Assembly: GCA_903824665.1 (NCBI GenBank)
Contig: CAIJXT010000024.1
Location: 1 to 64,000 of the forward strand
DNA: 64,000 nt
DNA from: an uncultured Bacteroidota bacterium
GTDB lineage: Bacteria; Bacteroidota; Bacteroidia; Chitinophagales; Chitinophagaceae
Direction of reading: 5' to 3'
Shown: positions 40,688 to 60,296 of the stretch, one piece after another
Layout of the letters: each line of letters starts with the position of its first letter
Numbering within the stretch: the stretch's first letter is position 1
Notes under the pieces: generated by a model
What the model saw: only the letters and a program-made list of their open reading frames with translations
Told to the model about the DNA's origin: nothing
Database searches by the model: none
Program-made: the position numbers and the translations under genes

Positions 40688-40695
40688 CTACCCTA
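40403..40695. repeat. Dispersed-type intergenic repeat with conserved hairpins
   Basis: The core CTCGAATGAG ... TTTGATCGGGTCGAGGGG (then TTTACCACCCCAGC) occurs at 40410-40454 and 40542-40586, and a degenerate third start at 40645. After each core is an A-run/T-run hairpin: GCTGTAAAAAA/TTTTTTACAGC (40453-40484) and GCATAAAAAAA/TTTTTTTATGC (40585-40614). A CTCC-TTTGCAA-GGAG hairpin ends each unit (40513-40527; 40618-40635). The pattern resembles short palindromic intergenic elements found in many copies in related genomes. Confidence 0.75.
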
Positions 40696-41801: not shown

Positions 41802-44800
41802 TTACTGCTGCAATACCAGGTGGAATGTTTTGCTTGCCGAAGCAGCACGTACATTAACGATATAGATACCGTTTGCAAGTGCACCATCGAGCTGTATGCG
41901 CTCGTTGATTGCCTTGCCTGCAACAGCAGCAGTACCACGGTATACTACCTGACCCAGCATGTCTGTGATCTCGATAGCTACCTCTTTATCGTCCATACCA
42001 GCCAGTGTGCCTTTTATTACAAATGCGCCCTTGGTTGGGTTTGGCATAAGCGTGATATCGAACGAAGATGTACCCACGTTTACAACACCAACATTGCTTA
42101 CCGCAACGCCTACTGTCTGCGAGGTTGCAAATTCACCGCAAGGTGTATTGTTGACCACACGAACGGTAACAGAATCGCCATCGATATACTCATTGTAAGT
42201 GAAGGTAGCGTTGGTAGCGCCTACCACGATACCACCATTGAGGTACCACTGGTAGGTAGGCATGTAGCTGTGCGTAAGGCCTGCAGTAAGTGTGAGCGAC
42301 TGTCCTTTGGCAATGCTCAGACCCGGATTGGCTGTGATGTTCACCACAGGTACTTCAGGAATGATCACCTTCATGGTATCGTTCTCGCCGGTAACAACAG
42401 TAGCCAGACGGCACCTGAAGTTGCTGGTCATGCTCACGGCAATCACATCGCCGCTAACAGGAGTGTATGTGAATACAGGACCTGAAGCAGTAACCACGCC
42501 ATTCTTCAACCAAGAGAACAATGGAGCGTCGCCGCCAAATACGCTCTCTGCAGTGAAGGTAACCGCTGTGCCTTCGCACAGTGTATCGCCGGAAGAAAGA
42601 TTAGCTACAACAGCAGGCAATCTGTTTTCGAGCACGGTAACCGTAGCAGCATCTGAAGCAGTGAGCGGATCGGCACAAGCTGCACTGCTTGCCAATACCA
42701 CTGTAACCACATCTCCGTTTGCAGGTGTGTACATATAGGTATCGCCAGTAGTTGCCACCACTGTACCGTTCACCTTCCACTGGTAGCCCGGTGTTGTGCC
42801 CGCGTTAGCAGCCACTGTAGTGAACATAACCGGATTGCCTGCACAAACTGTATCGTTGGATGCGGTAAGCATTACAGATGGGATAACAGCTGCATTGATA
42901 CCCACTACTGCAGTGCCTGTCATAGCACGTGTGCAGCCGGTAAGCGCGTCTGTAGCCAATACTGTGTATGTACCAGCAACTGTCTGTGAGCCGAAGCTGA
43001 GCGGGCCACCTGTGCCGGTAGCAGTAGCAAGCGCCGTGCTGCCCATGTACAAGCGATAGTTGACACCCGAAGCTGAATTAACAAGACCAACCGCAACACC
43101 TGTACCACCAGCGCAGTAATTGCCGCCACCGGCTACAGTCTGCAAACCGGGCAGTGCATTTACCACAACGGTAGCGCTACCTGTCATACCCTTCCAGCAG
43201 GCAGTAGTGGCGTTGGTAGCACGCACTGTGTAGGTGCCTGCCGCGGTGAAAGTACCGAAGTTGATAACACCGCCACCGGCAACCGCAGAACCTACTGCAG
43301 AAGAGCCATTGTAGAGGCGATAGTTGACACCAGCCTGCGATGCTGCAAGGCCAATGCTAACACCAGTGCCACCTGCGCAATAAGCACCACCACCGGTGAT
43401 AGTCTGGTTGGCAGGGAGGTTGTTGATGCTGATAGTAGCGCTGCCACTCATAGCCACACCACAAGTAGTAACAGTATTCAGCGCTGTAACGGTATAAGTA
43501 CCTGCAGCGGTCTGGGTACCGAAGTCGATAGAACCACCGGTACCATTAACTGCTGAACCTACCATTGTAGCACCATTGTACAAGGTGTACTGAACACCGA
43601 TTGCAGAACCGGCAAGGCCGATGCTGTGTCCTGTGCCACCCTCGCAGTACTGACCACCACCTGTAACGGCATAAACCGTAGGCAGCGGATTCTCTGCCAC
43701 AACAGCGGTGCCGAACATATGGTTGCGACAGCCTGTAACGGCATCTGTAGCCCTTACTGTGTAAGAACCAGCAGGCAGTACGCCAAAGCTGATGCTGCTA
43801 CCCGTACCTGCAACAGGACTGCCCTGTATAGCTGATCCTTTGTAGAGCTGATAATTGATACCAGCCTGTGTAGTGGTCATGGTGATCTCTACACCTGCCG
43901 CGTCGGCACAGTAGCTGCCACCAGAAGAAACCATGTTGGGCAAAGGCAATGTGTGAATAGCGATTGACGGGCTGCCAGTCATTGTAGCTGTGCAACCAGT
44001 AACTGTATTGGTACCCACCACAACATAAGCACCTGCCAGAGTCTGAGCACCGAAGTTGATGCTGCCGCCAGAGCCAGCGATTGCTGCGCCGAGGGCTGTA
44101 GTACTATTGTACAAGCGGTAAGAAACGCCTGTCTGTGAACCACCCAGATTGAGTATCACTCCGGCACCGCCTACGCAGTAACCCGAAGCACTGCTGGTAA
44201 GCGCGAAGGTGTTGGGCAAACCATTGATAGCCACAGAAGCGGCGCCAGACATATTGGCTGTGCAGCCAGTGGTGATATCAGTAGCCTTGATTGTGTAGCT
44301 ACCAGCATTGGTATGCAGTCCGAAGCTGATGTCGGAACCTGTACCTTCTACCGGAGCACCGATAGCTGCTGAAGCACTCATGAGCTGATAAGAAACGCCA
44401 GTCTGAGAACCCATGAGTCCGATATTAACACCGGTACCACCGGCACAGTAACTGCCGCCACCTGAAATGGTATAAACCACTGGCAAGTTGTTGATAACAA
44501 CGGTAGCCGCGCCAGCCATGCTGCGTGTGCAGGTAGTGGTTGCATTGGTAGCGATAACGGTGTAGTCGCCAGCGGCGATCTGATTGCCGAAGCTGAGCGT
44601 ACCACCAGTACCTGCAACAGGACTGCCAACAGGCAGTGTGCCACGATACAAGCGGTAGTTGACACCGATCTGAGAACCAGACAATGTTACACCAACACCT
44701 GTACCACCAGCGCAGTAACTACCGCCACCGGTAACATCGTATTGGTTTGGCTGCGGATGTACAGATATTGTAGCAGTACCAGTCATGTTGCTGCTGCAAC

Positions 44801-47800
44801 CAGTAGCATCGAAAGAAGCTGTAACAGAATAAGTGCCTGCAAGATTGCTACCGAAGTTCAACGGAGATCCGTTGCCTAATATTGGGCTGGTCATCTCTGT
44901 AGTTCCTCTGTACAGTCTGTAGCTAACACCGATCTGTGAACCGCTGAGGCCGATAACAGCACCTGCACCATCGGAGCAGTAACCACCGCCGCCAGTCATA
45001 CTGAACACAAAAGGCAATGCATTGGTAGTTATAACCGAAGTACCTGCCATACCTGTGGTACATGAATTGATATTATCTGTAGCTGAAACTGTGTAGACAC
45101 CTGCTGTCTGCAGACCGAAGTCGAGTATAGATCCGGTACCTGCTACTGCGCTGCCCACCAAAGTTGAGCCATTGTACAAGCGATAAGTAACGCCTGCCTG
45201 AGAGCCATTCAAAGTAACATGCACTCCGGTACCACCTACGCAGTAGCTGGCACCTGTAGATACGTTATAAACAGTTGGTAAAGCATGTGTTCCTACGGTT
45301 GCACTTCCGGCCATTGCTGCAGTACATCCCGTAGCAGTATTGACTGCCATAGCGGTGTAGCTGCCGGCGCCGGTTGTGAAGCCGAAGTCGAGCGTACTGC
45401 CGGTGCCTGCCATATCGCTGCCAGACTGTACTGTACCATTGTAGAGGCGATAAGTAATGCCCGACTGTGAGCCACTCAGTGTAATGTTCACACCAGTACC
45501 ACCTGTGCAGTAGTTACCACCACCACCTACTGTGTATGTAAGCGGCAAAGCATTAACAACCACGGTAGCATCGCTGATCATAGCGCTGGTGCAACCCGTA
45601 GCAGCATTGACACCCACCACATTGTATGTGCCTGCAGCAGTCTGGAAGCCGAATGACAACACATCGTCTGTGCCTGCCACCGGAGCGCCTACCGCAACGG
45701 AACCGTTGTACAACTGGTAGTTGACACCAGCCTCAGAACCGCTCATTGCAACATCAACACCTGCGCCACCGGCACAGTATGCACCACCACCTACAACAGT
45801 TTGTGCTGCAGGCAATGGATTGTTGATAACTGTAACGTCGTTGACCATAGCGGCTGAACAGCCTGTAATATTATTGACCGCTGATACGGAGTAAATACCA
45901 GCTCCTGTGAAGAGGCCCATATCTACCGCACCACCAGTGCCACTGAATGAAGTGCCAACAGGCACCGCACCATTATACAAAGTATAGGTAACATTGATCT
46001 CAGAACTGCCGAGACCGATATGAACACCAGAACCACCTGCGCAGAATCCGCCACCACCGGTAACAGACTGAGCAACCGGCAGCGGATTAATCACCACGGC
46101 TGCAGTACCGCTCATAGACGCAGTACATGAAGTAGATGCATCGGTAGCCTTAACAATATAAGTACCAGCCATAGTCTGATCGCCGAAGCTGAGTGCAAAC
46201 CCGGTACCTGCCACAACAGCACCTACAGGCATTGTACCGATGTACAACTGATAGTTGACACCTGTAACAGAACCACCCAGGCCAACATTAACGCCCGTGC
46301 CACCGTCGCAGAACGAACCGCCACCGGTAACAGAGAATGCTGTAGGCACAGCAGTAGTACTTACTACCGCGCTGCCTGTCATATCGATGGTGCAGGAAGT
46401 AGTGCTATTGACTGCTTTAACTGTGTAGGTACCATTATCGAACTGAGGACCAAATGAAACTGCAAAACCAGTACCCGTTACGACGCTGCCTGTGGCAACA
46501 CCGTTTTTATAGAGTTGGTAAATGATTCCGGTGTTAGAGCCGGAAAGGTCGACACTGGCACCAGCACCACCGGCACAATACGTACCGCCGCCAGTGACAT
46601 TGTAAACAACCGGCAATGGATTAACTACAATTGTAGCGCTGCCAGACATCGCAGCAGCACAACTTGTGGTTGCATTTGCAGCCTGTACTGTGTACAAACC
46701 TGCGGTAGCCTGCAGACCGAAGCTGATAGCTGCGCCTGTACCAGCAACGCTGATACCGGTAGCAACACCGTCGTTGTACAGGGCGTAGTTAATACCTGAT
46801 TCAGAACCTGAAAGACCAACCAAAACACCAGCACCTGATGCACAATGTGTGCCACCACCAGTTACCACGAAGGTAACAGGAGCCGCATTGACTGTAACAT
46901 CAACACTGCCGTTCATTGTGCTCTGGCAAGAAGTAGCATCATTCACTGCACGGATTGTGTAGGTACCAGCGACGTTCGGACCGAAGTCGAGCGTAGCGCC
47001 TGTACCTGCAATTGGTGTACCAACTGGTGTAGATCCGCTATACAGCGTATAAGTAACACCTGTTTGAGAACTGCTCAGCGCGATGCCGGCACCCGCTGTG
47101 CCTGCGCAATATGCACCACCACCTGTGATGTTGAACACAGTTGGGTTTGGATTGACACTGACTGTAACGGTTCCACTCATGCTATTGCTGCATGTTGTGG
47201 AAGTATTAACTGCTGATACGCTGTACACACCCGGAGTGGTCATCAGACCAAAATCGAGTGGTGAATTGGTACCGGTAACCGGAGTACCAACAGCAATAGA
47301 ACCTCTGTAAAGCCTGTAAGCCACGCCAGATGCCGACCAGCTAAGGCCAACATTGACACCAGTACCGCCCTCGCAGAAGTTGCCACCGCCAGTAACGGTA
47401 TAAGCAGCAGGAGTAGGATTGATAACGATAGTAGCCGTACCGGTCATGTTGCTAACACAACCAGTAGCAGGGTTTGTTGCCTGAACTGTGTACGTGCCAG
47501 CGGCCGTATGAATACCAAGATTCAATGCCGTACCCAGACCTGAGATGGCACTGCCAACCGGTACAGAACCATTGAACAAACGGTAGTCTATGCCGAATGA
47601 TGAACCAGCGATGCCCACCGGCAAACCTGTACCACCAGAACAATAGCTGCCACCACCTGTGACGCTATAAACAACCGGCAGCGGATGAACAACAATCTCA
47701 GGAGTACCTGTCATGATTCTTGAACAACCTGATGTAATGTTTGTTGCTTTTACAGAGTAGAAGCCGGCAACTGTCTGGAGACCGTAGCTGATAAATGTAC

Positions 47801-50800
47801 CAGTACCTGCTACAGGTGCACCCACCGCAGTAGTACCTCTGTAGAGCTGATAGCTGATACCTGTATTAGAACCGTTGAGCGTAACGCTGAAACCGGTGCC
47901 GCCTGCACAGTAGTTACCACCACCTGTCACCAGGTAGTTGATTGGCAACGCATCTACTACCACAGCAGCACTACCCGTCATCGTGTTGATACAACCGGTG
48001 GTGTTGTTGGTAGCCTTAACTGAGTAGGTACCTGCTGATGACTGTGCGCCAAAATCGAGCGAAGAACCAGTACCCGGTAATGTTGATATTATAGAAGCAC
48101 CATTGTATAACTGATAAGTAACGCCAGACTGTGAACCTGAAAGGCCTACTGCAAGACCAGAACCTCCTGCGCAATAGTTGCCACCACCTGTTATAGTGAA
48201 TGCAGTTGGCAGTGTGTATGTACCAACTGATACGCTACCTGTCATATTGCTGGTACAACCAGTGAGTACGTTTGTGGCCGTAGCAGAATAGCTGCCCACG
48301 GTAGTATAAGCACCGAGGTTGATAGCACCACCTGTTCCGGTGATTGCAGAACCAACTGCTGTAGCACCTCTGTATACCTGATAAGTGATGCCTATATTGG
48401 AACTTGAAAGTGTAATGTTAACACCGCCATCGCCAGGGCAGTAGCTGCCACCACCGAGAACTGTGTATGCAGAAGGAACGGCATTTACTATAACCGTTGT
48501 AGATCCTGTCATAGCAGTGGTGCAGCCTGAAGTTGCATTTGTAGCAAGTACAGTGTAAGTACCTGCAGTTGTCTGCGGGCCGAAAGTAATTGCTGAGCCT
48601 GTACCGCTGACCATGCTGCCAACAGCACCTGCACCGATGTACAATCTGTAGTTAACGCCAGACTGTGAACCGCTGAGGCCTATCACGTTTCCGGTGCTGC
48701 CTGCACAATGATTACCACCGCCAGTTACCGCAAATGCAGAAGGAGGTGTATTTACTATAACTGTTGCAGAGCCGGTCATATCGGAGATACAGCCAGTGAA
48801 CATATTGGTAGCTCTTACCGTGTAGGTAGCAGGAACAAATATCTCTCCGAAATCAACACCCGCGCCTGAACCTGGCATCACAGAACCTACCGGAGAACCG
48901 CCAACCATAAGCTGGTAGTTGATGCCGGTTTCAGAACCGAGGATACCGATATGTGCGCCTGCACTGCCAGAGCAATAACCGCCACCGCCGTATACTGCAA
49001 ATATTGCAGGAAGCGCGTTAACAATAACGGTCTTCGTAGTGCTCATGGCTTTTGTACAACCAGTAGTTGTATTTGTAGCCAGTACAGAATAAGTACCTGC
49101 TACTGTCTGCAATCCGAAAGAAATTGATGCACCAGTACCTGCTACCGGGCTACCTACAGAAGTTGCACCTCTGTATAGCTGGTAGTTGATACCTGTCTGC
49201 GAGCCAGCTACACCCATAGTAACTCCAGTGCCACCTGAGCAATAGCTACCACCACCGTTCATAGCGAAAGCGGTAGGCAGAGCATTCACAATAACTGTTG
49301 CACTACCTGTCATTGGATGCGTGCAAAGTGTAGCGCTGTTTGTAGCAAGTACTGTGTAGGTAGCTGCTGTGAACTGCTGTCCGAAACTTATAGCAACGCC
49401 TGTACCAAATACCGGGCTACCAATAGCAGTAGCACCATCGTATAACTGGTAAGTAATACCTATATTAGAATTGCTGAGTCCTACAGCAACGCCGCTGCCA
49501 CCCGCGCAATAGCTGCCACCACCGGTCACATTGTATGCTGTTGGTGCAGGGTTGACGATAACAGTTGCTGTACCCGTCATGCCGTTTACACAACCAGTGC
49601 CAGTATTAGTAGCCCGAACGCTGTAAGTACCAGCGGCGGTCTGCAAGCCAAATGTGAGTGCACCACTAACACCTGCAACAGGGCTTCCTGTAGCAGTGGT
49701 GCCGTTGTACAATTGGTAGCTGATCGTGCTGTTCTCTGAAGTGTTCAGACCAACAGTCACACCTGAACCGTTTTCGCAGTATGTACCACCGCCTGTAACA
49801 ATCTGCGCCACAGGAAGCGGGTTGATCACGATGGTTGCGGAACCGGTCATTGCACGTGTACAGCTAGTGATGCTGTTAGTTGCAAGAACTGAGTAAGTGC
49901 CTGCTGCCGTGTAGGTGCCGAATGTGATCGGTACACCAGTGCCGGCAACCGGACCACCTACGAGCGTGCTACCGTTGTACAACTGATAATTGATACCTGT
50001 GTTGGTAAATGCCATTCCAACGGTAACTCCAGTACCACCGGCACAGTATGCACCGCCACCAGTAACCGCGAACTGAGTAGGCAATGGATCTATAACAACT
50101 ACTGTGCTGCCAAACATGCCGCTATAACATGCTGTAACGGTATTGGTAGCACCTACGGTGTAAGATCCTGAAACAGTCTGCAGTCCGAAAGAGATAGCCG
50201 AACCGGTACCGGCAACAGGCGAACCTGTAGCCGTAGTACCATTATACAACTGATAGCTGATACCGAGGCTGGAGCTTGCAAGTCCTATATCCACACCGGT
50301 ACCACCAGCGCAGTAATGACCACCACCTGTTACTACATAAATAGTAGGCAACGGATTTACAACGATGGTAGCTGCACCTGTCATGGCACGTGTACATGTT
50401 GATGTTGCGTCTGTAGCAAGCACTGTATAAGATCCGGCTGTTGCCTGGATACCAAATGATATTGCCGAACCGGTGCCTGCAACAGGAGTACCGATAACGG
50501 AAACGCCGTTGTATAACTGGTAACTGATACCCACCTCAGAGCCATCGAGGCCAACAGGTAAGCCTGCACCGCCCTGACAGTAGCTACCACTGCCCGTAAC
50601 ATTATGTAACGGTGGCAGCGGGTTTACTGTAACGGCTACACTTCCGCTCATATTGTTGGTGCATGAAGTAGTGCCATTTGTTGCAAACACGGTGTATGTA
50701 CCTGCTGAAGTTTGATTGCCGAAGCTGATGGCTGATCCTGTACCTGCCACTGGGCTACCCGTTGGGGTAGAGCCATTGTACAACTGGTAATTGATTCCTG

Positions 50801-53800
50801 TTGCAGAGAATGACAAACCTATCGGAACGCCTGATCCGCCAGCGCAGTACTGACCACCACCTGTTACAGCATAAACTGTAGGCAGTGCATTAACAACTAT
50901 TGAAGCAGTACCGTTCATATCGCCCACACAGGCTGTAACGGTATTAGTACCCAATACAGAATAGGTGCCTGCGGCAGTCTGAGTGCCAAAACTCAGAATA
51001 GAACCAGTACCAGCTAGTGGTGCACCCACTGGAGTGCTGCCATTGTATAACTGATAGTGAATACCAGTATTGGAGTTAGAAAGTAATATCGCGAAACCTG
51101 AACCACCTGCACAATAGGTGCCACCACCAGATACAGTATATGGTGTAGGTGCCGGCAGAATATTTACAGCTGCAAAAGAACTCATTGCACCGGTACAACC
51201 AGTAATGGTGTTTGTAGCCAGTACAGTGTAAATACCGGAAACGTTCTGTGATCCAAAGGTTATAACACCTGGCAAACCACTAACCGGACTGCCCGTAGCA
51301 GAAGAACCATTGTATAACTGGTATGTAGTGTTAAGTTCAGAATTGGATAAACCAACAGAAATAGCTCCGGTACCAGGGCAGGTTGTACCACCACCGGTAA
51401 CAGTGTAGGCGGTAGGTGCAGGATTCACGTTAATAGTAGCGCTACCAGCCATGTTGCTTGTACAACCCAGAGTTGCATTCGTTGCCACAACGGTATAAGT
51501 ACCTGCAACAGTAATGAGACCAAAGTCGAGTGCTGATGTAGAACCAGGAACCGGACTTCCAACAGCGGTTGCACCACGATACAACTGGTAATTCACACCC
51601 AGAACAGACCAATCGAGACCAATGTGTGTGCCAACAGATCCCTGACAGATTGTGCCGCCACCAGTTACATTATAAACAATCGGGTTAGGTGCTACAAATA
51701 TCACTGCGGAGCCAGTCATGGTGCGCTGACACGATGTGCCGGGTTCAGCAACAATGGTATAAGTACCATCGGTAGAATGTGTACCAAAACTCAGTGCACT
51801 ACCTGTGCCTACAACTGGTGCTCCTACAGGAGTAACACCGTTGTACAATTGGTAATTAACGCCGGCATCGGATCCATTAAGACCAATTGCAAAGCTGGTG
51901 CCACTACCAACGCATGTGCTGCCGCCACCGGTCATTGTGTACACTGCAGGTAAAACGCCCAATGTTACTGTAGCGCTACCTTGTGTACCCCAGCAACCCG
52001 CAGCAGTCTGTGCACGGAAGTAATAAGTACCGGAAGAAGAAATCAATTGTGAAGAAGATGGAGTAGCGACAGACGTACCACCGGAAGTAGTACCCTGGAA
52101 ATAGATGGTACCGCCAGAACCACCTGTTGCTGTGAGCACGGTACTGGTACAGTAAGCACCGCCACCTGAAACCGTAACCGCACCTGCATTAGGATTGATG
52201 ACTACAGATACACTTCCTTCTGTACCCCAACAGCCCAGAGCTGTCTGTGCACGGAAATAATATGTACCCGATGTAGTTATAGATTGCGAAGTAGACGGTG
52301 TAGCGGTAGAAGTGCCACCGGATGTAGTACCCTGGAAATATATAGTACCACCAGAACCACCGCTTGCAGTGATCGTGGTGCTGTTGCAGAATGTACCGCC
52401 ACCAGATGCAGTTACTGCACCGGCATTAGGATTGATCGTTACCGATACACTTCCTTCAGGACCCCAGCAACCTGCTGCAGTTTGTGCACGGAAATAGTAA
52501 GTACCTGACGCAGACACAACCTGAGAAGAAGACAGTGTAGCAGTAGATGTACCGCCTGATGTGGTACCCTGGAAGTAAATAGAACCACCTGATCCACCAC
52601 TGGCAGTAATCGTAGCATTGTTACAGAACGTACCGCCACCAGATGCAGTAACCGCACCTGCGTTTGGATTAATCGTCACAGATACACTTCCTTGTGTACC
52701 CCAGCAGCCAGCGGCTGTCTGCGCACGGAAGTAATAGGTACCGGAAGATGTTATGAACTCTGATAAAGAAGGAGCTACTGTAGATGTACCACCCGATGTA
52801 GTACCCTGGAAATAGATGGTACCACCAGAACCGCCAGTTGCGGTCACCAGCGTACTGTTGCAGAAAGTGCCGCCACCGGATACCGTAACTGCACCTGCAT
52901 TCGGATTAATTACTACTGTCACGCTACCCTCTGTGCCCCAGCACCCTGCGGCCGTTTGAGCACGGAAGTAATATGTACCGGAAGATGTAACCACTTCGGA
53001 AGATGAGATAGTAGCTGTAGATGTACCGCCTGAAGTAGTACCCTGGAAATAAATGGTTCCGCCAGAACCGCCGCTTGCAGTGATCGTAGCGCTGTTACAG
53101 AATGTACCGCCACCAGATGCGGTAACTGCACCTGCATTAGGATTGATCGTAACAGCTACACTTCCTTCTGTACCCCAGCAGCCCGCAGCTGTCTGTGCAC
53201 GGAAGTAATAGGTGCCGGAAGATGTTATGAACTCTGATAATGAAGGAGCTACTGTAGATGTTCCACCCGATGTAGTACCCTGGAAATAAATGGTACCACC
53301 AGAACCGCCAGTTGCGGTAACCAGCGTACTGTTGCAGAAAGTACCGCCACCGGACACCGTAACTGCACCTGCATTCGGATTAATTACTACAGTCACGCTA
53401 CCCTCTGTACCCCAGCAGCCTGCGGCCGTTTGAGCACGGAAGTAATAAGTACCGGAAGATGTAACCACCTCGGAAGAGGAAATAGTAGCTGTAGATGTAC
53501 CGCCTGAAGTAGTACCCTGGAAATAAATGGTACCGCCTGAACCGCCGCTTGCAGTGATCGTAGCGCTGTTACAGAATGTACCGCCACCTGATGCTGTTAC
53601 CGCACCTGCGTTCGGGTTAATCGTAACAGCTACACTTCCTTCTGTACCCCAGCAGCCTGCAGCTGTGCGTGCACGGAAGTAATAGGTGCCCGATGATGTT
53701 ATGTTCTCAGAAACAGAAGGAGTTGCTGTGGACGTGCCACCAGAAGTAGTACCCTGGAAGAAGATCGTACCACCTGATCCACCACTTGCTGTGATCGTAG

Positions 53801-56800
53801 TGTTATTACAGAACGTACCAGCACCAGAGGCGGTTACCGCACCCGCGTTGGGATTGATTGTTACCGTTACACTACCCTCTGTACCCCAACAGCCTGCGGC
53901 TGTACGGGCACGGAAATAATATGTACCAGAAGATGTGATGACTTCCGATGTAGACGGAGTTGCGGTAGATGTGCCACCAGAAGTAGTACCCTGGAAGAAG
54001 ATAGTACCACCGGAGCCACCGCTTGCAGTAATAGTAGTGTTGTTACAGAATGTACCGGCGCCAGCTGCGGTTACTGCACCTGCGTTCGGATTTATCGTTA
54101 CAGATACGCTGCCCTCTGCACCCCAGCAGCCCAGGGCAGTCTGTGCACGGAAGTAATAGGTACCTGAAGATGTTATGTTCTCAGAAATAGATGGCGTTGC
54201 GACAGATGTACCTCCGGATGTAGTACCCTGGAAGTAGATCGTACCACCAGATCCACCGCTTGCGGTGATGGTAGTATTGTTACAGAATGTACCGCCGCCA
54301 GAAGCAGTGACTGCGCCGGCATTGGGATTGATGGTGACAGCAACACTACCCTGAGTACCCCAGCAACCCAAAGCAGTCTGAGCGCGGAAAAAATAGGTAC
54401 CGGAAGTTGTTATGTTCTCAGAAACAGATGGTGTTGCAATAGATGTACCGCCGGAAGTAGTACCCTGGAAGTAAATAGTACCGCCTGATCCGCCGGTAGC
54501 CGTGATCGTAGTATTATTACAGAATGTACCAGCGCCAGATACTGTTACAGCACCTGCATTGGGGTTGATGGTTACACTGACACTACCCTGAGGACCCCAG
54601 CAACCTGCTGCAGATTGTGAACGGAAATAATACGTACCTGAAGCAGTGATATTTTCTGATGTGGATGGGGTTGCGGTAGAAGTGCCTCCAGACGTAGTAC
54701 CCTGGAAGTATATCGTACCACCAGTACCGTCGGCAGCTGTGATCAATGTGCTGTTACAGAATGTACCGCCACCTGATACCGTAACAGCAGCAGGATTAGG
54801 ATTGATCGTAACAATAGCGCTTCCCTGTGTTCCCCAACAGCCCAGTGCTGTGCGTGCACGGAAATAGTATGTTCCGGAAGCTGTAACGTTCTCCGAAGTA
54901 GAGGCTACAGCAGTAGAGGTGCCACCTGACGTAGTACCCTGGTAGAAGATTGTACCACCTGAACCACCAGTTGCAGTAAGTGTGGTGTTGTCGCAAAATG
55001 CGCCTGCACCTGAAACTGTTACTGCACCGGCATTGGGGTTAATGGTAACTGTAACACTTCCCTCTGCACCCCAGCATCCCAGTGCTGTTTGTGCGCGGAA
55101 ATAATACGTGCCGGATGATGTGATGTTCTCAGATGTAGATGGTGTAGTTGTAGATGTTCCACCAGATGTTGTTCCCTGAAAATATATCGTACCGCCGATT
55201 CCGCCGCTGGCTGTGATAGTGGTATTGTTGCAGAATGTGCCACCACCTGAAACAGTCACCGCGGCAGGGTTAGGATTGATAGTAACTGCAGCACTACCCT
55301 GTGTACCCCAGCAACCGAGCGCTGTTTGTGCACGGAAATAATAAGTACCCGTCGTTGTGATGACTTCAGAAGAAGATGTTACAGCTGTAGAGGTTCCACC
55401 GGAAGTTGTGCCCTGATAAAATATGGTGCCACCTGAGCCACCGCTTGCTGTGATGGTAGCAGTGTTACAGAATGTGCCACCTCCAGCTACCGTTACGGCA
55501 CCTGCATTAGGATTGATGGTTACAGTAACACTTCCTTCTGTGCCCCAGCAACCGAGAGCGGTCTGTGCACGGAAGTAGTAAGTACCTGATGAGGTAATAT
55601 TCTGAGAGGTAGATGGTGTAGCTGTAGAAGTTCCGCCGGAAGTTGTACCCTGGAAATAAATTGTGCCACCAGCGCCGCCACTTGCCGTGATGGTGGTGTT
55701 GTTACAAAAGCTACCACCACCGGATACGGTAACTGCTGCCGGATTTGGATTGATTGTAACTGCTACACTACCCTCTGTACCCCAGCAACCAGCGGCTGTC
55801 TGTGCACGGAAGTAATAGGTGCCTGATGTTGTAACTACTTCGGAAGAAGATATTGTAGCTGTAGATGTGCCGCCTGATGTAGTACCCTGGAAGTATATGG
55901 TACCACCGGTACCACCACTTGCCGTGATCGTTGCACTGTTACAGAATGTACCGCCGCCGGATGCTGTTACTGCACCGGCATTAGGATTGATAGTTACTGT
56001 AACACTTCCCTCGGTACCCCAGCAACCTGCGGCTGTCTGTGCACGGAAATAATAAGTGCCTGATGACGTAACTACTTCGGATGAAGATATAGTAGCTGTT
56101 GATGTGCCACCTGATGTAGTACCCTGGAAATAGATCGTACCACCGGTACCACCACTTGCCGTGATCGTTGTACTGTTACAGAATGTTCCACCGCCTGATG
56201 CTGTTACTGCACCGGGATTAGGATTGATAGACACAGTAACACTACCCTGTGTGCCCCAGCAGCCCGCAGCTGTCTGTGCACGGAAGAAATAGGTACCTGA
56301 CGAGGTAACTACTTCGGATGATGATATAGTAGCTGTTGATGTGCCGCCTGAAGTTGTACCCTGGAAATATATGGTTCCACCGGTACCACCACTCGCAGTG
56401 ATAGTTGCGCTGTTACAGAACGTACCGCCGCCTGATGCTGTTACTGCACCGGCGTTTGGATTGATGGTTACAGTAACACTACCCTCTGTGCCCCAGCAAC
56501 CAGCGGCTGTCTGTGCACGGAAGTAATAAGTGCCTGATGAAGTAACTACTTCTGAAGAAGATATTGTAGCGGTAGAGGTGCCGCCTGATGTAGTACCCTG
56601 AAAGTATATAGTGCCACCGGTACCACCACTTGCCGTGATGGTTGCACTGTTACAGAATGTACCGCCGCCTGATGCTGTTACTGCACCGGCATTAGGATTG
56701 ATGGTAACCGTAACACTTCCCTCGGTACCCCAGCAACCTGCGGCTGTCTGTGCACGGAAGTAATAAGTACCTGATGAAGTAACTACTTCGGAAGAAGATA

Positions 56801-59800
56801 TGGTAGCGGTAGACGTACCGCCTGATGTTGTACCCTGGAAGTATATAGTACCACCGGTACCACCGCTGGCAGTGATCGTTGCACTGTTACAGAATGTACC
56901 GCCGCCTGATGCAGTTACAGCACCGGCATTAGGATTGATAGTTACAGTAACACTACCCTCGGTACCCCAGCAACCAGCGGCTGTCTGTGCACGGAAGTAA
57001 TATGTACCTGATGAAGTAACTACTTCGGAAGAAGATATAGTAGCGGTAGACGTGCCACCTGATGTAGTACCCTGGAAGTATATTGTACCACCGGTTCCAC
57101 CACTGGCAGTGATGGTTGCACTGTTACAGAATGTACCGCCACCTGATGCTGTTACTGCACCGGCGTTTGGATTGATGGTAACGGTAACACTACCCGCGGT
57201 GCCCCAGCAACCAGCGGCTGTCTGTGCACGGAAGTAATAAGTGCCTGAAGAAGTAACGACTTCGGAAGAAGATATTGTAGCGGTAGATGTACCCCCTGAT
57301 GTTGTACCCTGGAAGTAAATGGTACCACCGGCGCCACCACTTGCTGTGATCGTTGCACTGTTACAGAATGTGCCACCACCTGACGCAGTTACTGCCGCAG
57401 GGTTAGGATTGATTGAAACAGTTACGCTGCCCTCGGCACCCCAGCAACCGCCTGCGTTCTGAGCACGGAAGTAATAAGTGCCGGACGAAGTAACCACTTC
57501 GGAAGATGAAATCGTAGCAGTAGATGTGCCACCTGATGTGGTACCCTGGAAGTAGATAGTGCCACCAGTACCGCCACTGGCTGTGATAGTAGCGCTGTTG
57601 CAGAAAGTACCACCGCCCGCAGCTGTTACTGCTCCGGGGTTGCTGGTAATTGTTACGTTTACACTACCCTCTGTACCCCAGCAACCTGCTGCGGTCTGTG
57701 CACGGAAGTAATAAGTGCCTGAAGTAGTAACTACTTCGGAAGATGATATAGTAGCAGTAGACGTGCCACCTGATGTAGTACCCTGGAAGTAAATGGTACC
57801 ACCGGCACCACCACTCGCAGTGATGGTTGCACTGTTACAGAATGTACCGCCGCCTGATGCAGTTACTGCCGCAGGGTTAGGATTGATTGAAACAGTTACG
57901 CTGCCCTCGGTACCCCAGCAACCGCCTGCATTCTGTGCGCGGAAGTAATATGTCCCGGATGAAGTAACCACCTCTGAAGATGATATGGTGGTAGTAGACG
58001 TGCCGCCAGATGTGGTACCCTGGAAGTAGATAGTACCACCGGTACCGCCACTGGCTGTGATAGTAGCGCTGTTACAGAACGTGCCACCGCCGGCAGCCGT
58101 TACGGCACCCGGATTGCTGCTGATCGTTACGTTGGCACTACCCTCAGTACCCCAGCAGCCCGCGGCTGTCTGAGCACGGAAGAAATAGGTGCCTGATGTT
58201 GCAATTAATTCAGATGTAGAAGGTGTTGCTATAGATGTGCCGCCAGATGTAGTACCCTGGAAGTATATGGTACCGCCGGTACCGCCGCTTGCTGTAATGG
58301 TGGTACTGGCGCAAAAAGACCCACCACCTGAAACGGTTACTGCACCAGCAGCCGGATTGATAGTTACTGTTACACTACCCTCTGGCCCCCAACAACCTGC
58401 CGCTGTTTGTGCACGGAAGTAATAAGTACCAGATGTAGAAACAAGCTGTGAGGAAGACGGTGTAGCTGTAGAAGTGCCACCAGATGTGGTGCCCTGAAAG
58501 TAAATGGTACCACCTGCTCCGCCACTGGCTGTAATAGTGGTACTACCACAGAATGTACCGCCGCCTGAGGCTGTTACCGCACCAGCATTGGGATTTATGG
58601 TTACGCTGGCACTGCCCTCAGTACCCCAGCAACCGGCTGCAGATTTCGATCTGAAATAATAAGTACCGGTGGATGATACGACCTGAGGGCTACCGCCCGA
58701 AGCTTCGTCGGTACCACCGGAGGTAGTACCTTGATAAAAAATAGTGCCACCTGTTCCACCTGTCGCCGTGAGTGTAGCAGTACCACATGATGTACCACCA
58801 CCAGAAACTGTTACTGCAGTCGGAATTGGGTTGATGGTCACAGTGATGCCCTCAGCGGTACCCCAACAACCTACAGATGTACGAGCACGGAAATAGTATG
58901 TACCGGAAACTGAAACTACCTGAGTAGTAGATGGTGTGGTAATAGATGTACTGGCACCATTGGTACCATGGTAATATATAGTGCCGCCTGTACCGCCGGT
59001 AGCAGTCAATGTTGCAGAACCACAAACAGGTGTCGCTGTTGAGGTAACAGTAACATCAGATGGTGTAGGGTTGATTGACGTTACTACAATGCTGGCTTCT
59101 GTACCCCAACAGCCCAGCGCTGTACGGGCTCTGAAATAATACGTGCCTAAAGCTGGCACTGTGATGGCAGGAGGAAGCGCAGTAGCAGTAGATGTACCGC
59201 CTGAAACAGTACCCTGAAAATATATAGTCGCACCGCTGGCACCGCCAGCAGAAATCTGGGATCCACCACATGTTGCAGAGTTCTGGCTAAGTGATATAGC
59301 TGGAGGTAACGGAGCCACTGACAGGCTGGCAAAGTTGGTACTTGCTGTGATGTTATTCCAGGTACCCGAAACGGCTGTACGCCTTACCTGGCCTGCTGCA
59401 GCGCCTGCTGTATTTGGCTTTACAGACAAACCAGAAATTACTATTGAATTCAGGTTGGTAAGGTTATCCAGTGTCAACGTTCTGGTGATAACAAGTGTAC
59501 CACCGCTCCACGAAGCCGACGCTGCTATACCGGTACCGGTTACTGATATTGTCGGAACCGGACCAGCTGTATTAAACGCCCAGCCACTGGGCGCGCTAAG
59601 CGTTAATGATCCATCACTGGTGAAGTCTGCAACAGCACCTTCTGCAATAGTGATATCGCCCAGTGTTGTAAACGCCTCGTTGACACCGCCAACAGCTTTA
59701 TCGGCACAAATGTTTGAACCACCAGAACCAAGCGTAATGGTGATGGTTGCATAAGAGCTGACTGTTGCCAACAGAATGAGGAGTGTCATTGCAAAAGCTT

Positions 59801-59873
59801 TACCGATACGTGAAAACACGATTGACGGTTGCGACAAGGCCTTTGACAAATGGAAAAATGTAGATTTTTTCAT
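41802..59873 (-). CDS. Giant T9SS-secreted modular repeat protein (about 6,023 residues)
   Basis: One uninterrupted 18-kb frame. The start is ATG 59873 (MKKSTFFHLSKALSQ) or 59882, three codons earlier. A long signal peptide runs to about residue 43 (MTLLILLATVSSYA, then TITIT). Residues about 45-185 form a non-repeat beta-rich N-domain. Next come 31 type C modules of 79 residues (FC ... YFQGTTSGG ... GTYYFRAQTAAGCWG), resembling the Ig_7 CHU_C-associated fold. Then 34 type B modules of about 89 residues (TGGGSYCAGGTGV ... YQLYNG ... SFG.Q..AGTYTV ... C). Then three type D Ig/PKD-like modules and a T9SS type A sorting domain (LMPNPTKGAFVIKG ... LANGIYIVNVRAASASKTFHLVLQQ). Secretion by T9SS is firm. 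An adhesin, gliding or matrix role is inferred from architecture alone. Internal repeats are so similar that assembly collapse is possible. Confidence 0.95.
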   Translation of the reverse strand: MKKSTFFHLSKALSQPSIVFSRIGKAFAMTLLILLATVSSYATITITLGSGGSNICADKAVGGVNEAFTTLGDITIAEGAVADFTSDGSLTLSAPSGWAFNTAGPVPTISVTGTGIAASASWSGGTLVITRTLTLDNLTNLNSIVISGLSVKPNTAGAAAGQVRRTAVSGTWNNITASTNFASLSVAPLPPAISLSQNSATCGGSQISAGGASGATIYFQGTVSGGTSTATALPPAITVPALGTYYFRARTALGCWGTEASIVVTSINPTPSDVTVTSTATPVCGSATLTATGGTGGTIYYHGTNGASTSITTPSTTQVVSVSGTYYFRARTSVGCWGTAEGITVTINPIPTAVTVSGGGTSCGTATLTATGGTGGTIFYQGTTSGGTDEASGGSPQVVSSTGTYYFRSKSAAGCWGTEGSASVTINPNAGAVTASGGGTFCGSTTITASGGAGGTIYFQGTTSGGTSTATPSSSQLVSTSGTYYFRAQTAAGCWGPEGSVTVTINPAAGAVTVSGGGSFCASTTITASGGTGGTIYFQGTTSGGTSIATPSTSELIATSGTYFFRAQTAAGCWGTEGSANVTISSNPGAVTAAGGGTFCNSATITASGGTGGTIYFQGTTSGGTSTTTISSSEVVTSSGTYYFRAQNAGGCWGTEGSVTVSINPNPAAVTASGGGTFCNSATITASGGAGGTIYFQGTTSGGTSTATISSSEVVTTSGTYYFRAQTAAGCWGTEGSVNVTITSNPGAVTAAGGGTFCNSATITASGGTGGTIYFQGTTSGGTSTATISSSEVVTSSGTYYFRAQNAGGCWGAEGSVTVSINPNPAAVTASGGGTFCNSATITASGGAGGTIYFQGTTSGGTSTATISSSEVVTSSGTYYFRAQTAAGCWGTAGSVTVTINPNAGAVTASGGGTFCNSATITASGGTGGTIYFQGTTSGGTSTATISSSEVVTSSGTYYFRAQTAAGCWGTEGSVTVTINPNAGAVTASGGGTFCNSATITASGGTGGTIYFQGTTSGGTSTATISSSEVVTSSGTYYFRAQTAAGCWGTEGSVTVTINPNAGAVTASGGGTFCNSATITASGGTGGTIYFQGTTSGGTSTATISSSEVVTSSGTYYFRAQTAAGCWGTEGSVTVTINPNAGAVTASGGGTFCNSATITASGGTGGTIYFQGTTSGGTSTATISSSEVVTSSGTYFFRAQTAAGCWGTQGSVTVSINPNPGAVTASGGGTFCNSTTITASGGTGGTIYFQGTTSGGTSTATISSSEVVTSSGTYYFRAQTAAGCWGTEGSVTVTINPNAGAVTASGGGTFCNSATITASGGTGGTIYFQGTTSGGTSTATISSSEVVTTSGTYYFRAQTAAGCWGTEGSVAVTINPNPAAVTVSGGGSFCNNTTITASGGAGGTIYFQGTTSGGTSTATPSTSQNITSSGTYYFRAQTALGCWGTEGSVTVTINPNAGAVTVAGGGTFCNTATITASGGSGGTIFYQGTTSGGTSTAVTSSSEVITTTGTYYFRAQTALGCWGTQGSAAVTINPNPAAVTVSGGGTFCNNTTITASGGIGGTIYFQGTTSGGTSTTTPSTSENITSSGTYYFRAQTALGCWGAEGSVTVTINPNAGAVTVSGAGAFCDNTTLTATGGSGGTIFYQGTTSGGTSTAVASTSENVTASGTYYFRARTALGCWGTQGSAIVTINPNPAAVTVSGGGTFCNSTLITAADGTGGTIYFQGTTSGGTSTATPSTSENITASGTYYFRSQSAAGCWGPQGSVSVTINPNAGAVTVSGAGTFCNNTTITATGGSGGTIYFQGTTSGGTSIATPSVSENITTSGTYFFRAQTALGCWGTQGSVAVTINPNAGAVTASGGGTFCNNTTITASGGSGGTIYFQGTTSGGTSVATPSISENITSSGTYYFRAQTALGCWGAEGSVSVTINPNAGAVTAAGAGTFCNNTTITASGGSGGTIFFQGTTSGGTSTATPSTSEVITSSGTYYFRARTAAGCWGTEGSVTVTINPNAGAVTASGAGTFCNNTTITASGGSGGTIFFQGTTSGGTSTATPSVSENITSSGTYYFRARTAAGCWGTEGSVAVTINPNAGAVTASGGGTFCNSATITASGGSGGTIYFQGTTSGGTSTATISSSEVVTSSGTYYFRAQTAAGCWGTEGSVTVVINPNAGAVTVSGGGTFCNSTLVTATGGSGGTIYFQGTTSGGTSTVAPSLSEFITSSGTYYFRAQTAAGCWGTEGSVAVTINPNAGAVTASGGGTFCNSATITASGGSGGTIYFQGTTSGGTSTATISSSEVVTSSGTYYFRAQTAAGCWGTEGSVTVVINPNAGAVTVSGGGTFCNSTLVTATGGSGGTIYFQGTTSGGTSTVAPSLSEFITSSGTYYFRAQTAAGCWGTQGSVSVTINPNAGAVTASGGGTFCNNATITASGGSGGSIYFQGTTSGGTSTATLSSSQVVSASGTYYFRAQTAAGCWGPEGSVSVTINPNAGAVTASGGGTFCNSTTITASGGSGGTIYFQGTTSGGTSTATPSTSQSITTSGTYYFRAQTALGCWGTEGSVSVVINPNAGAVTVSGGGAYCTSTVLTATGGSGGTIYFQGTTSGGTSVATPSSSQLISSSGTYYFRAQTAAGCWGTQGSATVTLGVLPAVYTMTGGGSTCVGSGTSFAIGLNGSDAGVNYQLYNGVTPVGAPVVGTGSALSFGTHSTDGTYTIVAEPGTSCQRTMTGSAVIFVAPNPIVYNVTGGGTICQGSVGTHIGLDWSVLGVNYQLYRGATAVGSPVPGSTSALDFGLITVAGTYTVVATNATLGCTSNMAGSATINVNPAPTAYTVTGGGTTCPGTGAISVGLSNSELNTTYQLYNGSSATGSPVSGLPGVITFGSQNVSGIYTVLATNTITGCTGAMSSFAAVNILPAPTPYTVSGGGTYCAGGSGFAILLSNSNTGIHYQLYNGSTPVGAPLAGTGSILSFGTQTAAGTYSVLGTNTVTACVGDMNGTASIVVNALPTVYAVTGGGQYCAGGSGVPIGLSFSATGINYQLYNGSTPTGSPVAGTGSAISFGNQTSAGTYTVFATNGTTSCTNNMSGSVAVTVNPLPPLHNVTGSGSYCQGGAGLPVGLDGSEVGISYQLYNGVSVIGTPVAGTGSAISFGIQATAGSYTVLATDATSTCTRAMTGAATIVVNPLPTIYVVTGGGHYCAGGTGVDIGLASSSLGISYQLYNGTTATGSPVAGTGSAISFGLQTVSGSYTVGATNTVTACYSGMFGSTVVVIDPLPTQFAVTGGGAYCAGGTGVTVGMAFTNTGINYQLYNGSTLVGGPVAGTGVPITFGTYTAAGTYSVLATNSITSCTRAMTGSATIVINPLPVAQIVTGGGTYCENGSGVTVGLNTSENSTISYQLYNGTTATGSPVAGVSGALTFGLQTAAGTYSVRATNTGTGCVNGMTGTATVIVNPAPTAYNVTGGGSYCAGGSGVAVGLSNSNIGITYQLYDGATAIGSPVFGTGVAISFGQQFTAATYTVLATNSATLCTHPMTGSATVIVNALPTAFAMNGGGSYCSGGTGVTMGVAGSQTGINYQLYRGATSVGSPVAGTGASISFGLQTVAGTYSVLATNTTTGCTKAMSTTKTVIVNALPAIFAVYGGGGYCSGSAGAHIGILGSETGINYQLMVGGSPVGSVMPGSGAGVDFGEIFVPATYTVRATNMFTGCISDMTGSATVIVNTPPSAFAVTGGGNHCAGSTGNVIGLSGSQSGVNYRLYIGAGAVGSMVSGTGSAITFGPQTTAGTYTVLATNATSGCTTAMTGSTTVIVNAVPSAYTVLGGGSYCPGDGGVNITLSSSNIGITYQVYRGATAVGSAITGTGGAINLGAYTTVGSYSATATNVLTGCTSNMTGSVSVGTYTLPTAFTITGGGNYCAGGSGLAVGLSGSQSGVTYQLYNGASIISTLPGTGSSLDFGAQSSAGTYSVKATNNTTGCINTMTGSAAVVVDALPINYLVTGGGNYCAGGTGFSVTLNGSNTGISYQLYRGTTAVGAPVAGTGTFISYGLQTVAGFYSVKATNITSGCSRIMTGTPEIVVHPLPVVYSVTGGGSYCSGGTGLPVGIAGSSFGIDYRLFNGSVPVGSAISGLGTALNLGIHTAAGTYTVQATNPATGCVSNMTGTATIVINPTPAAYTVTGGGNFCEGGTGVNVGLSWSASGVAYRLYRGSIAVGTPVTGTNSPLDFGLMTTPGVYSVSAVNTSTTCSNSMSGTVTVSVNPNPTVFNITGGGAYCAGTAGAGIALSSSQTGVTYTLYSGSTPVGTPIAGTGATLDFGPNVAGTYTIRAVNDATSCQSTMNGSVDVTVNAAPVTFVVTGGGTHCASGAGVLVGLSGSESGINYALYNDGVATGISVAGTGAAISFGLQATAGLYTVQAANATTSCAAAMSGSATIVVNPLPVVYNVTGGGTYCAGGAGASVDLSGSNTGIIYQLYKNGVATGSVVTGTGFAVSFGPQFDNGTYTVKAVNSTTSCTIDMTGSAVVSTTAVPTAFSVTGGGSFCDGGTGVNVGLGGSVTGVNYQLYIGTMPVGAVVAGTGFALSFGDQTMAGTYIVKATDASTSCTASMSGTAAVVINPLPVAQSVTGGGGFCAGGSGVHIGLGSSEINVTYTLYNGAVPVGTSFSGTGGAVDMGLFTGAGIYSVSAVNNITGCSAAMVNDVTVINNPLPAAQTVVGGGAYCAGGAGVDVAMSGSEAGVNYQLYNGSVAVGAPVAGTDDVLSFGFQTAAGTYNVVGVNAATGCTSAMISDATVVVNALPLTYTVGGGGNYCTGGTGVNITLSGSQSGITYRLYNGTVQSGSDMAGTGSTLDFGFTTGAGSYTAMAVNTATGCTAAMAGSATVGTHALPTVYNVSTGASYCVGGTGVHVTLNGSQAGVTYRLYNGSTLVGSAVAGTGSILDFGLQTAGVYTVSATDNINSCTTGMAGTSVITTNALPFVFSMTGGGGYCSDGAGAVIGLSGSQIGVSYRLYRGTTEMTSPILGNGSPLNFGSNLAGTYSVTASFDATGCSSNMTGTATISVHPQPNQYDVTGGGSYCAGGTGVGVTLSGSQIGVNYRLYRGTLPVGSPVAGTGGTLSFGNQIAAGDYTVIATNATTTCTRSMAGAATVVINNLPVVYTISGGGSYCAGGTGVNIGLMGSQTGVSYQLMSASAAIGAPVEGTGSDISFGLHTNAGSYTIKATDITTGCTANMSGAASVAINGLPNTFALTSSASGYCVGGAGVILNLGGSQTGVSYRLYNSTTALGAAIAGSGGSINFGAQTLAGAYVVVGTNTVTGCTATMTGSPSIAIHTLPLPNMVSSGGSYCADAAGVEITMTTTQAGINYQLYKGSAIQGSPVAGTGSSISFGVLPAGSYTVRATDAVTGCRNHMFGTAVVAENPLPTVYAVTGGGQYCEGGTGHSIGLAGSAIGVQYTLYNGATMVGSAVNGTGGSIDFGTQTAAGTYTVTALNTVTTCGVAMSGSATISINNLPANQTITGGGAYCAGGTGVSIGLAASQAGVNYRLYNGSSAVGSAVAGGGVINFGTFTAAGTYTVRATNATTACWKGMTGSATVVVNALPGLQTVAGGGNYCAGGTGVAVGLVNSASGVNYRLYMGSTALATATGTGGPLSFGSQTVAGTYTVLATDALTGCTRAMTGTAVVGINAAVIPSVMLTASNDTVCAGNPVMFTTVAANAGTTPGYQWKVNGTVVATTGDTYMYTPANGDVVTVVLASSAACADPLTASDAATVTVLENRLPAVVANLSSGDTLCEGTAVTFTAESVFGGDAPLFSWLKNGVVTASGPVFTYTPVSGDVIAVSMTSNFRCRLATVVTGENDTMKVIIPEVPVVNITANPGLSIAKGQSLTLTAGLTHSYMPTYQWYLNGGIVVGATNATFTYNEYIDGDSVTVRVVNNTPCGEFATSQTVGVAVSNVGVVNVGTSSFDITLMPNPTKGAFVIKGTLAGMDDKEVAIEITDMLGQVVYRGTAAVAGKAINERIQLDGALANGIYIVNVRAASASKTFHLVLQQ
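42890..51965 (-). repeat. Type B module array (34 copies, about 267 bp)
   Basis: 34 modules were counted from the GGG.(Y)C starts. The core pattern is LP..Y.VTGGG.YC.GG.GV.IGL.GS..GV.YQLY.G....G.PV.GTGS.ISFG.Q..AGTYTV.ATN...C...M.GSA.V.VNP. Two cysteines per module. Copies are diverged, with very few identical neighbours, unlike the type C array. Type B modules also occur once in the right giant and at the left edge of the left giant. Confidence 0.9.
51966..59325 (-). repeat. Type C module array (31 copies, 237 bp)
   Basis: 31 modules with a strict 237-bp (79-codon) period over most of the array. Cysteines sit at module positions 16 and 68 and a conserved GCWG follows YYFRAQTA. The three N-terminal modules are diverged. 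Modules 10-12 are identical in protein sequence. Two-module (474-bp) blocks are duplicated at 52687-53634 and at about 57184-58131. Confidence 0.92.
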
Positions 59874-60296
59874 ACTGAACATTTTAGTTTAAACGCTTTA
59901 CAACAATACGCCCTTTCTCGCCTGCGTTGCCACATGCGAGATTTATATTGCATATTACCCGTAAAATCTGGTATAAAAGTAGATAAAATACGGGAAAAGT
60001 TAACATTTTGCTTTGTAAACCGAATGTTAACCGAAAATTATTATTAATTAAATGGAATCTTTTTTTACACCAACACTTTGACTCGAAGGAGCAAAGTGTA
60101 CTTTTGCTCAAACACTTGCAAACAGTTTATATTTATAGTCATGATATTATTTGCTTTACAACATTTCACATACCTAAACAAAACAAATAATACCTAGTAG
60201 AAATATTTATTTTATACTGATTTTCTGATTATTACATCATATAAAAATCAAATAGGGCACCCAACAATGGGTGCCCTATTCAGGTAAAAATGCAGA
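59874..60296. other. Intergenic region between right and middle giant genes
   Basis: AT-rich, about 423 bases. It contains the terminator of the right giant gene (60251-60280) and a perfect 9-bp inverted repeat, GTTAACATT (59999-60007) / AATGTTAAC (60023-60031), about 126 bases upstream of the middle giant start. No TTTG-N19-TANNTTTG promoter was found on the minus strand, although TACTTTTA (one mismatch to the -7) occurs near plus 59971. Confidence 0.5.
60251..60280 (-). terminator. Terminator of the right giant gene
   Basis: Perfect 12-bp stem AATAGGGCACCC / GGGTGCCCTATT with a 6-base loop, followed on the minus strand by TGATTTTTAT. It lies 16 bases after the stop codon. Confidence 0.88.

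Follow-up and report, generated by a model that had tools for sequence, protein, structure and literature searches.

A giant protein with a predicted type IX secretion signal in an uncultured Chitinophagaceae bacterium joins a bead array of conserved length to a variable outer part

The window analysed here, a stretch of 64,000 nucleotides (positions 1 to 64,000 of contig CAIJXT010000024.1 in assembly GCA_903824665.1) from an uncultured Bacteroidota bacterium of the family Chitinophagaceae, carries on its minus strand a gene of 18 kb for a giant protein with two long arrays of immunoglobulin (Ig)-like modules, designated C and B, and a sorting domain of the type IX secretion system (T9SS). The genome comprises 4.73 Mb in 35 contigs. 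An earlier note on this DNA, made from the letters alone, had described a single uninterrupted gene with 31 modules of 79 residues, 34 modules of 89 residues, three Ig/PKD-like modules and a T9SS tail, and this parts list is borne out by one open frame, by the spacing of module anchors and by Pfam and NCBIfam matches. The features are the following (aa, amino acids):

41802..59882, minus strand: the whole gene, 6026 aa from the first ATG (6023 aa from the ATG at 59873), with no internal stop
59751..59873, minus strand: signal-peptide-like start, aa 4-44, read by eye; the start of the protein in the related genome G002 is similar
59298..59750, minus strand: N-terminal domain, about aa 45-195, with no Pfam match over the cut-off and no PDB match
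51963..59297, minus strand: C array, 31 Ig_7 modules of 79 aa with two cysteines each
42900..51962, minus strand: B array, 34 Ig_7 modules of 88-90 aa with two cysteines each
42093..42899, minus strand: three Ig/PKD-like modules, with Ig_3, Ig_7 and PKD_3 matches
41805..42092, minus strand: T9SS type-A C-terminal sorting domain, with Por_Secre_tail and TIGR04183 matches
40688..41731, minus strand: arginase-family gene, a syntenic marker that adjoins the giant in relatives

The second in-frame ATG, at 59873, is the likelier start of the giant, because the G002 ortholog also begins with MK ahead of its signal peptide. GCWG anchors (n = 31) mark the C array at a spacing of 79 residues in 29 of 30 intervals and of 81 in one, and 34 B anchors follow at a spacing of 88-90, with B1 directly abutting C31. 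Self-identity of the protein reaches up to 0.90 at a lag of 79 residues, 0.94 at 158 and 0.50 at 89, compared with 0.13-0.21 at the best other lags, a periodicity far beyond chance. With a floor of 15 bits, the two module profiles place all 31 C modules ahead of all 34 B modules, so that the arrays are unmixed as had been claimed; a looser scan adds two hits below 20 bits, one of B type inside the C array and one of C type after B34. The two cysteines of each bead would probably form one disulfide. The C-terminal end scores 33.2 bits against Por_Secre_tail (cut-off 27) and 34.5 bits against TIGR04183 (cut-off 23), and the T9SS translocon protein SprA is encoded in the same genome (2454.7 bits, cut-off 200). 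No exact DNA repeat of at least 60 bases was found within the giant gene; identical C copies could be collapsed in the assembly, and 31 C modules are to be read as a minimum.

The two arrays had been regarded as different in kind, a distinction that survives as one between subtypes rather than separate families. The Pfam search proposed in the earlier note matches both to Ig_7 (PF19081, Ig-like domain CHU_C associated) over its cut-off of 27.3 bits, with 109.6 bits for aa 900-1500 in the C array and 102.1 bits for aa 2600-3500, a segment that is mostly B with about 40 residues of C31 included, which leads us to reject separate, unrelated families for the two arrays. The two cysteines and the G-Y of a GTY motif are invariant over the C and B rows, and the identity between C and B modules averages 37%, with a maximum of 53%. 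The proposed structure prediction of paired modules yielded confident all-beta bead pairs in AlphaFold2 for both arrays, with predicted local distance difference test (pLDDT) values of 97.4 for B and 92.3 for C. Direct comparison of the C and B profiles is weak (hhalign E 0.0013, probability 18%), so that their kinship rests on the Ig_7 match, the shared cysteines and the fold. Relative to Ig_7 at large, the modules of the giant fall into two uniform blocks: neighbouring modules share 82% protein identity in C and 52% in B, and equal-length B modules have a mean DNA identity of 53%. The case is a warning that a two-array protein need not mean two unrelated arrays.

The locus was followed through 35 genomes of the genus, the window's own included. 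All 35 hold a match to the C-terminal 365 residues of the giant and 34 a match to the arginase, 6 of the latter only weak and partial; the arginase locus was examined in 18 of the 27 other genomes whose arginase match is strong. A long-stalk gene lies in the same place and orientation beside the arginase gene in five of these 18 (G002, G007, G013, G009 and G029), the contig of G013 ending on the N-terminal side of the giant. G017 (L107, contig 86) has a giant with six modules of a third type, D, and at least 19 B modules beside the arginase gene, on the opposite strand and cut by the contig end, which may mean that the locus has been inverted or that this giant is another paralog. An 11,548-aa frame of G024 was left out, 32,000 of 40,000 bases being N. 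The N-terminal domain (query aa 1-200) is matched in 32 of the 35 genomes of the genus and in 0 of 25 others, and it also begins a frame of 4,142-4,231 aa in 12 genomes. B-type modules that pass E 1e-10 are thinly spread in the phylum, occurring in 19 of 296 sampled genomes, the window's own included. Upstream of the giant and on the same strand, a 2354-aa frame (60297-63998, continuing to contig position 67361) with Big_2 modules and a T9SS tail of its own is kept beside the giant in G002. A further giant, with a legume-lectin-like N-terminal domain and Big_2-type modules, occupies 3-8474 on the minus strand (2824 aa) and runs off the window.

The B segment is a unit of conserved length. In each of the six species with the long-stalk gene, the final 33 B modules plus the tail come to 3,293-3,297 residues, and all 15 species pairs align over 3,289-3,294 columns of this part. 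Gaps occupy 21 of the 3,304 alignment columns, three at the outer edge, the remainder single, with no internal indel of more than one residue across the six species, at a stalk identity of 53-60% (94% for the close pair G007/G013). When modules were paired by centred similarity and scored against order-shuffled controls, 34 of 34 window B modules fell on a single offset with G007, G013 and G009 and 33 of 33 with G002, with scores of 2.97-4.17 against shuffled maxima of 1.24-1.63. The register is a property of the whole array, single modules being often ambiguous. In the comparison of the window with G029, 23 of 34 B modules lie on one register, and in that of G007 with G029 four outer modules lie on offset 0 and the remaining 31 on offset 27; from this jump it follows that the extra block of G029 lies near the outer side. 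B arrays as such can change number, since three species carry 27, 22 and 17 B modules, respectively, in a second protein type whose N-terminal domain, of the same kind, leads straight into the B array; the 27-B and 22-B proteins differ by a block of five, with 78% identity over the first six modules and 93% over the last six. The number of B modules in the giant itself is unchanged in these species except for the G029 block. Two paralogs in the window's own genome, on contigs C13 (L024-L025) and C3 (L027), have 25 B modules each and are colinear, with 68% identity over 2,582 aligned residues of a stalk that is not in the register of the window. Their heads mostly differ, Gly-rich and GEVED in one and a P-domain in the other, with 322 residues beside the stalk in common.

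The part that precedes the B array varies. It was read with the C and B profiles and a third profile, D, made from the 92-aa modules of G029, and has the following builds:

Window: 31 C
G002: C, four D, gap, D, C, four D
G007: eight D; three C before the D block are seen by eye only, the profile being silent
G013: three C, eight D
G009: eleven D
G029: 33 D (then 62 B)

The three C modules seen by eye in G007 align with those of G013, and these two species are alike, so that the six species show five different builds. The module type switches at the start of 33-35 B modules in the orthologs of four other assemblies and before the 62 B modules in the fifth. Of the earlier proposal that the two arrays form distinct stalk segments, the B segment as a conserved unit in six species is therefore strengthened, with a varying part before it. 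The exact two-array build had been thought unfamiliar; it recurs in orthologs, which have a D array and then a B array. No description of a two-array Ig_7 protein was found in the available parts of the open-licence literature searched, and the accessible portion of PMC9210967 contains nothing on Ig_7. Heads vary as well: GEVED domains are found in G007, G009 and G029, together with a Gly-rich part in G029 and regions that are beta-helix-like by eye, and the window and G002 share the common N-terminal domain as their head, with 44% identity over about 188 aa. The 11,279-aa open frame of G029 (contig 10, L100-L101), which contains no unknown residues, runs from a Gly-rich and GEVED head through a beta-helix-like region, 33 D and 62 B modules to a tail that is alike. 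Stalk identity is 60% between the window and G007/G013 and 58% between the window and G002, with a tree support of 84/88, and the arginase tree leaves the placement of the window unsettled. The histories of head and stalk may disagree.

The uniformity of the C array was examined at synonymous sites. Modules C10-C12 are identical in protein and differ at 26-34% of their synonymous sites; six alike C pairs differ at 20-34%, with 0.26 for modules C10 and C11 and 0.20, the lowest value among them, for C25 and C27, and 32 neighbour pairs walked in another phase show a least synonymous difference of 0.28. Modules C25-C26 and C27-C28 have the appearance of two-module duplication units, with a proportion of differing synonymous sites (pS) of 0.20-0.22. 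The 378 pairs among C04-C31 have a median pS of 0.63 and, once 21 pairs of saturated dS are set aside, a median ratio of nonsynonymous to synonymous divergence (dN/dS) of 0.074. Since protein-identical copies differ at so many synonymous sites, the assembled array is not the result of very recent duplication; it was built up at several times, none of them very recent in the assembled part, and its beads are strongly constrained. Duplication of moderate age together with ordinary strong constraint is sufficient to explain the uniformity, because the C value of 0.074 is of the same order as those between G007 and G013 for the stalk (dN/dS 0.048, pS 0.45) and for the three C modules (dN/dS 0.029, pS 0.66). 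Special selection for codon diversity was considered and rejected, codon heterozygosity at 43 conserved C positions being 0.46, lower than the 0.60 that B codon usage would predict. A tree of the C modules, which bears on an origin within the lineage, has few columns, and 6 of its 42 inner branches are starred. Contig C25 of the window's own genome (G000; L021-L023 joined, 5140-25959) encodes a 6940-aa frame in which a stretch of some 4,200 residues that repeats every 55 aa, and that looks FG-GAP-like by eye, is followed by 76-aa Ig_7 modules and an end that is T9SS-like by eye. Its array of 76-aa units shows the same pattern, with nine neighbour pairs of at least 90% protein identity and a mean pS of 0.46.

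We favour, with a probability of about 0.72, the reading that the giant is a T9SS-exported fibrillar adhesin of the cell surface, with a constant stalk and an exchangeable outer segment; its adhesive role is what we infer from this architecture. Type-A cargo passes the T9SS by means of its C-terminal domain, and its C-terminal end is left at the surface. The predicted C-terminal domain would likewise take the giant through the T9SS and stay at the surface, and for this reason the B array would be the near, inner stalk, acting as a ruler, and the C array with the small N-terminal domain the far, exposed part. Selection would keep the stalk from changing in length, and fresh contact surfaces could arise at a fixed locus when the outer segment is replaced or amplified; in the window species one bead, C, would have been amplified to at least 31 copies. 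Candidate targets are a surface, a polysaccharide or other cells. The available part of PMC13319060 describes a filament of about 180 nm with 49 Ig-like DUF11 domains in another bacterium, and at the roughly 3.7 nm per bead of that filament the extended chain of the giant would measure about 250 nm. Repeated-bead stalks with a C-terminal anchor are likewise features of the fibrillar adhesins and periscope proteins in the accessible parts of PMC8286594 and PMC8201768, which list Por_Secre_tail as an anchor of fibrillar-adhesin-like proteins.

Several observations weigh against this reading. No adhesive domain was recognised in the stretches scanned with Pfam, aa 1-280 included, a point in which the giant would depart from the fibrillar adhesins, and a fifth AlphaFold2 model of a C pair is poor (pLDDT 64). 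Stalk length differs in G029, with its 62 B modules; taken singly, no more than 16-24 of the 34 modules find their reciprocal best match on the main diagonal, and many lie off it when plain identity is used. Five genomes that form a second group (G033, G012, G020, G004 and G001) have an arginase-linked short form with six B modules, which exists in two copies in G012, one with two and one with six B modules, and the B modules of the short form have no clear positional match to those of the window. At 7 of the 18 arginase loci no gene with C or B modules was found, five of these lying on contigs that end less than 9 kb away. Finally, the stalk tree groups the window with G007/G013 at a support of only 84/88, so that an exchange of heads is suggested rather than proved.

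SprB is a large, mobile adhesin. According to the available parts of PMC12635249 and PMC11205867, SprB of Flavobacterium johnsoniae resembles the giant as a large T9SS-exported surface adhesin, and the former describes it as a type-B substrate anchored by SprF, where the giant has a type-A tail instead. No match to TIGR04131 or CHU_C was found in the C-terminal 467 aa of the giant at E 1 (Pfam) or 0.1 (NCBIfam), and 26 matches, 24 of them over the cut-off, occur elsewhere in the genome.

A possible, if tentative, alternative is that both arrays are passive spacers that drift in number and type, the stalk keeping its length as its diverged B modules no longer recombine. The low identity of adjacent B modules in protein (52%) and of equal-length B modules in DNA (53%) would suppress unequal crossing-over, it is in the C array, with its more similar copies, that change did occur, and no ligand site is seen. 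However, the equally B-type arrays of the second protein type do vary (27, 22 and 17), G029 has 27 more B modules than G007, and module lengths are kept to single residues, which is more than a loss of recombination needs.

GhpA, the grappling hook protein of Aureispira sp., is, in what is available of its description, a T9SS protein of 5,898 residues with Ig-like beads, as in the giant. Its structures (PDB 9flp, 9flu, 9fls and others) are the best solved matches of the modelled B and C bead pairs, whose predicted bead fold and pairwise bead arrangement agree with those of GhpA. Several chains may lie side by side over their full length as a multimeric filament, with each bead level packed against its neighbours and the far end formed by a head or hook, an idea that seems rather doubtful. 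Just as doubtful is the broader version, in which side-by-side packing of several chains would keep the B stalk in register, with outer cassettes (C, D, beta-helix-like, GEVED heads) swapped at one site of a general Bacteroidota platform of which GhpA hooks would be one use; lateral bead-by-bead packing would then leave the stalk unable to gain or lose a bead. Sequence matches to GhpA are obtained with the B profile (E 2e-30) and the D profile of G029 (1e-130), but the profile of another Ig_7 array in this genome, that of contig C25, yields one too (4e-50). A GhpA match as a specific feature of the giant was accordingly rejected, and the control points to a shared class of T9SS bead strings rather than proof of hooks. 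Moreover, the C profile has no GhpA sequence match, aa 3961-6026, which cover 19 B modules and the tail, do not retrieve GhpA when searched as a single sequence, the heads of the window and G029 do not match it, and no VipB sheath match was found in the genome, where a divergent Bacteroidota type VI secretion system could be missed.

That the giant is a periscope protein, whose outer segment would vary in length among strains by means of near-identical repeats, is unlikely. The C modules, with up to 100% protein identity and a mean of 82% between neighbours, do resemble the periscope stalks in the available part of PMC8201768. The same source ties length change to high DNA identity, however, and the giant has no exact repeat of the length searched, six alike C pairs differ at 20-34% of synonymous sites, its C copies are too unlike in DNA for such a length change, and its inner stalk keeps its length in six species. 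An assembly product, in which one frame would combine two genes or the sequences of several strains, is very improbable, since the frame is open over 18 kb without a long exact repeat and a module-type switch before the B array recurs in orthologs of five other assemblies, even if the genome is in 35 contigs and contigs C10 and C31 begin with array matches at base 58, where arrays may have broken the assembly.

Taken as a surface adhesin with a constant stalk and an exchangeable outer segment, the giant bears on two general ideas about repeat proteins. In the available parts of PMC4660218 and PMC8201768, neighbouring beads are thought to have to differ in order to avoid misfolding, a rule that the C array breaks without very recent DNA duplication. 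Giant repeat proteins are also often thought to be elastic in length, and here a fixed and a free regime stand side by side. The surprise is this pairing of one fixed and one free segment, rather than the presence of two arrays, and it makes the giant a natural test of the rule on neighbouring beads and of what sets the length of a stalk.
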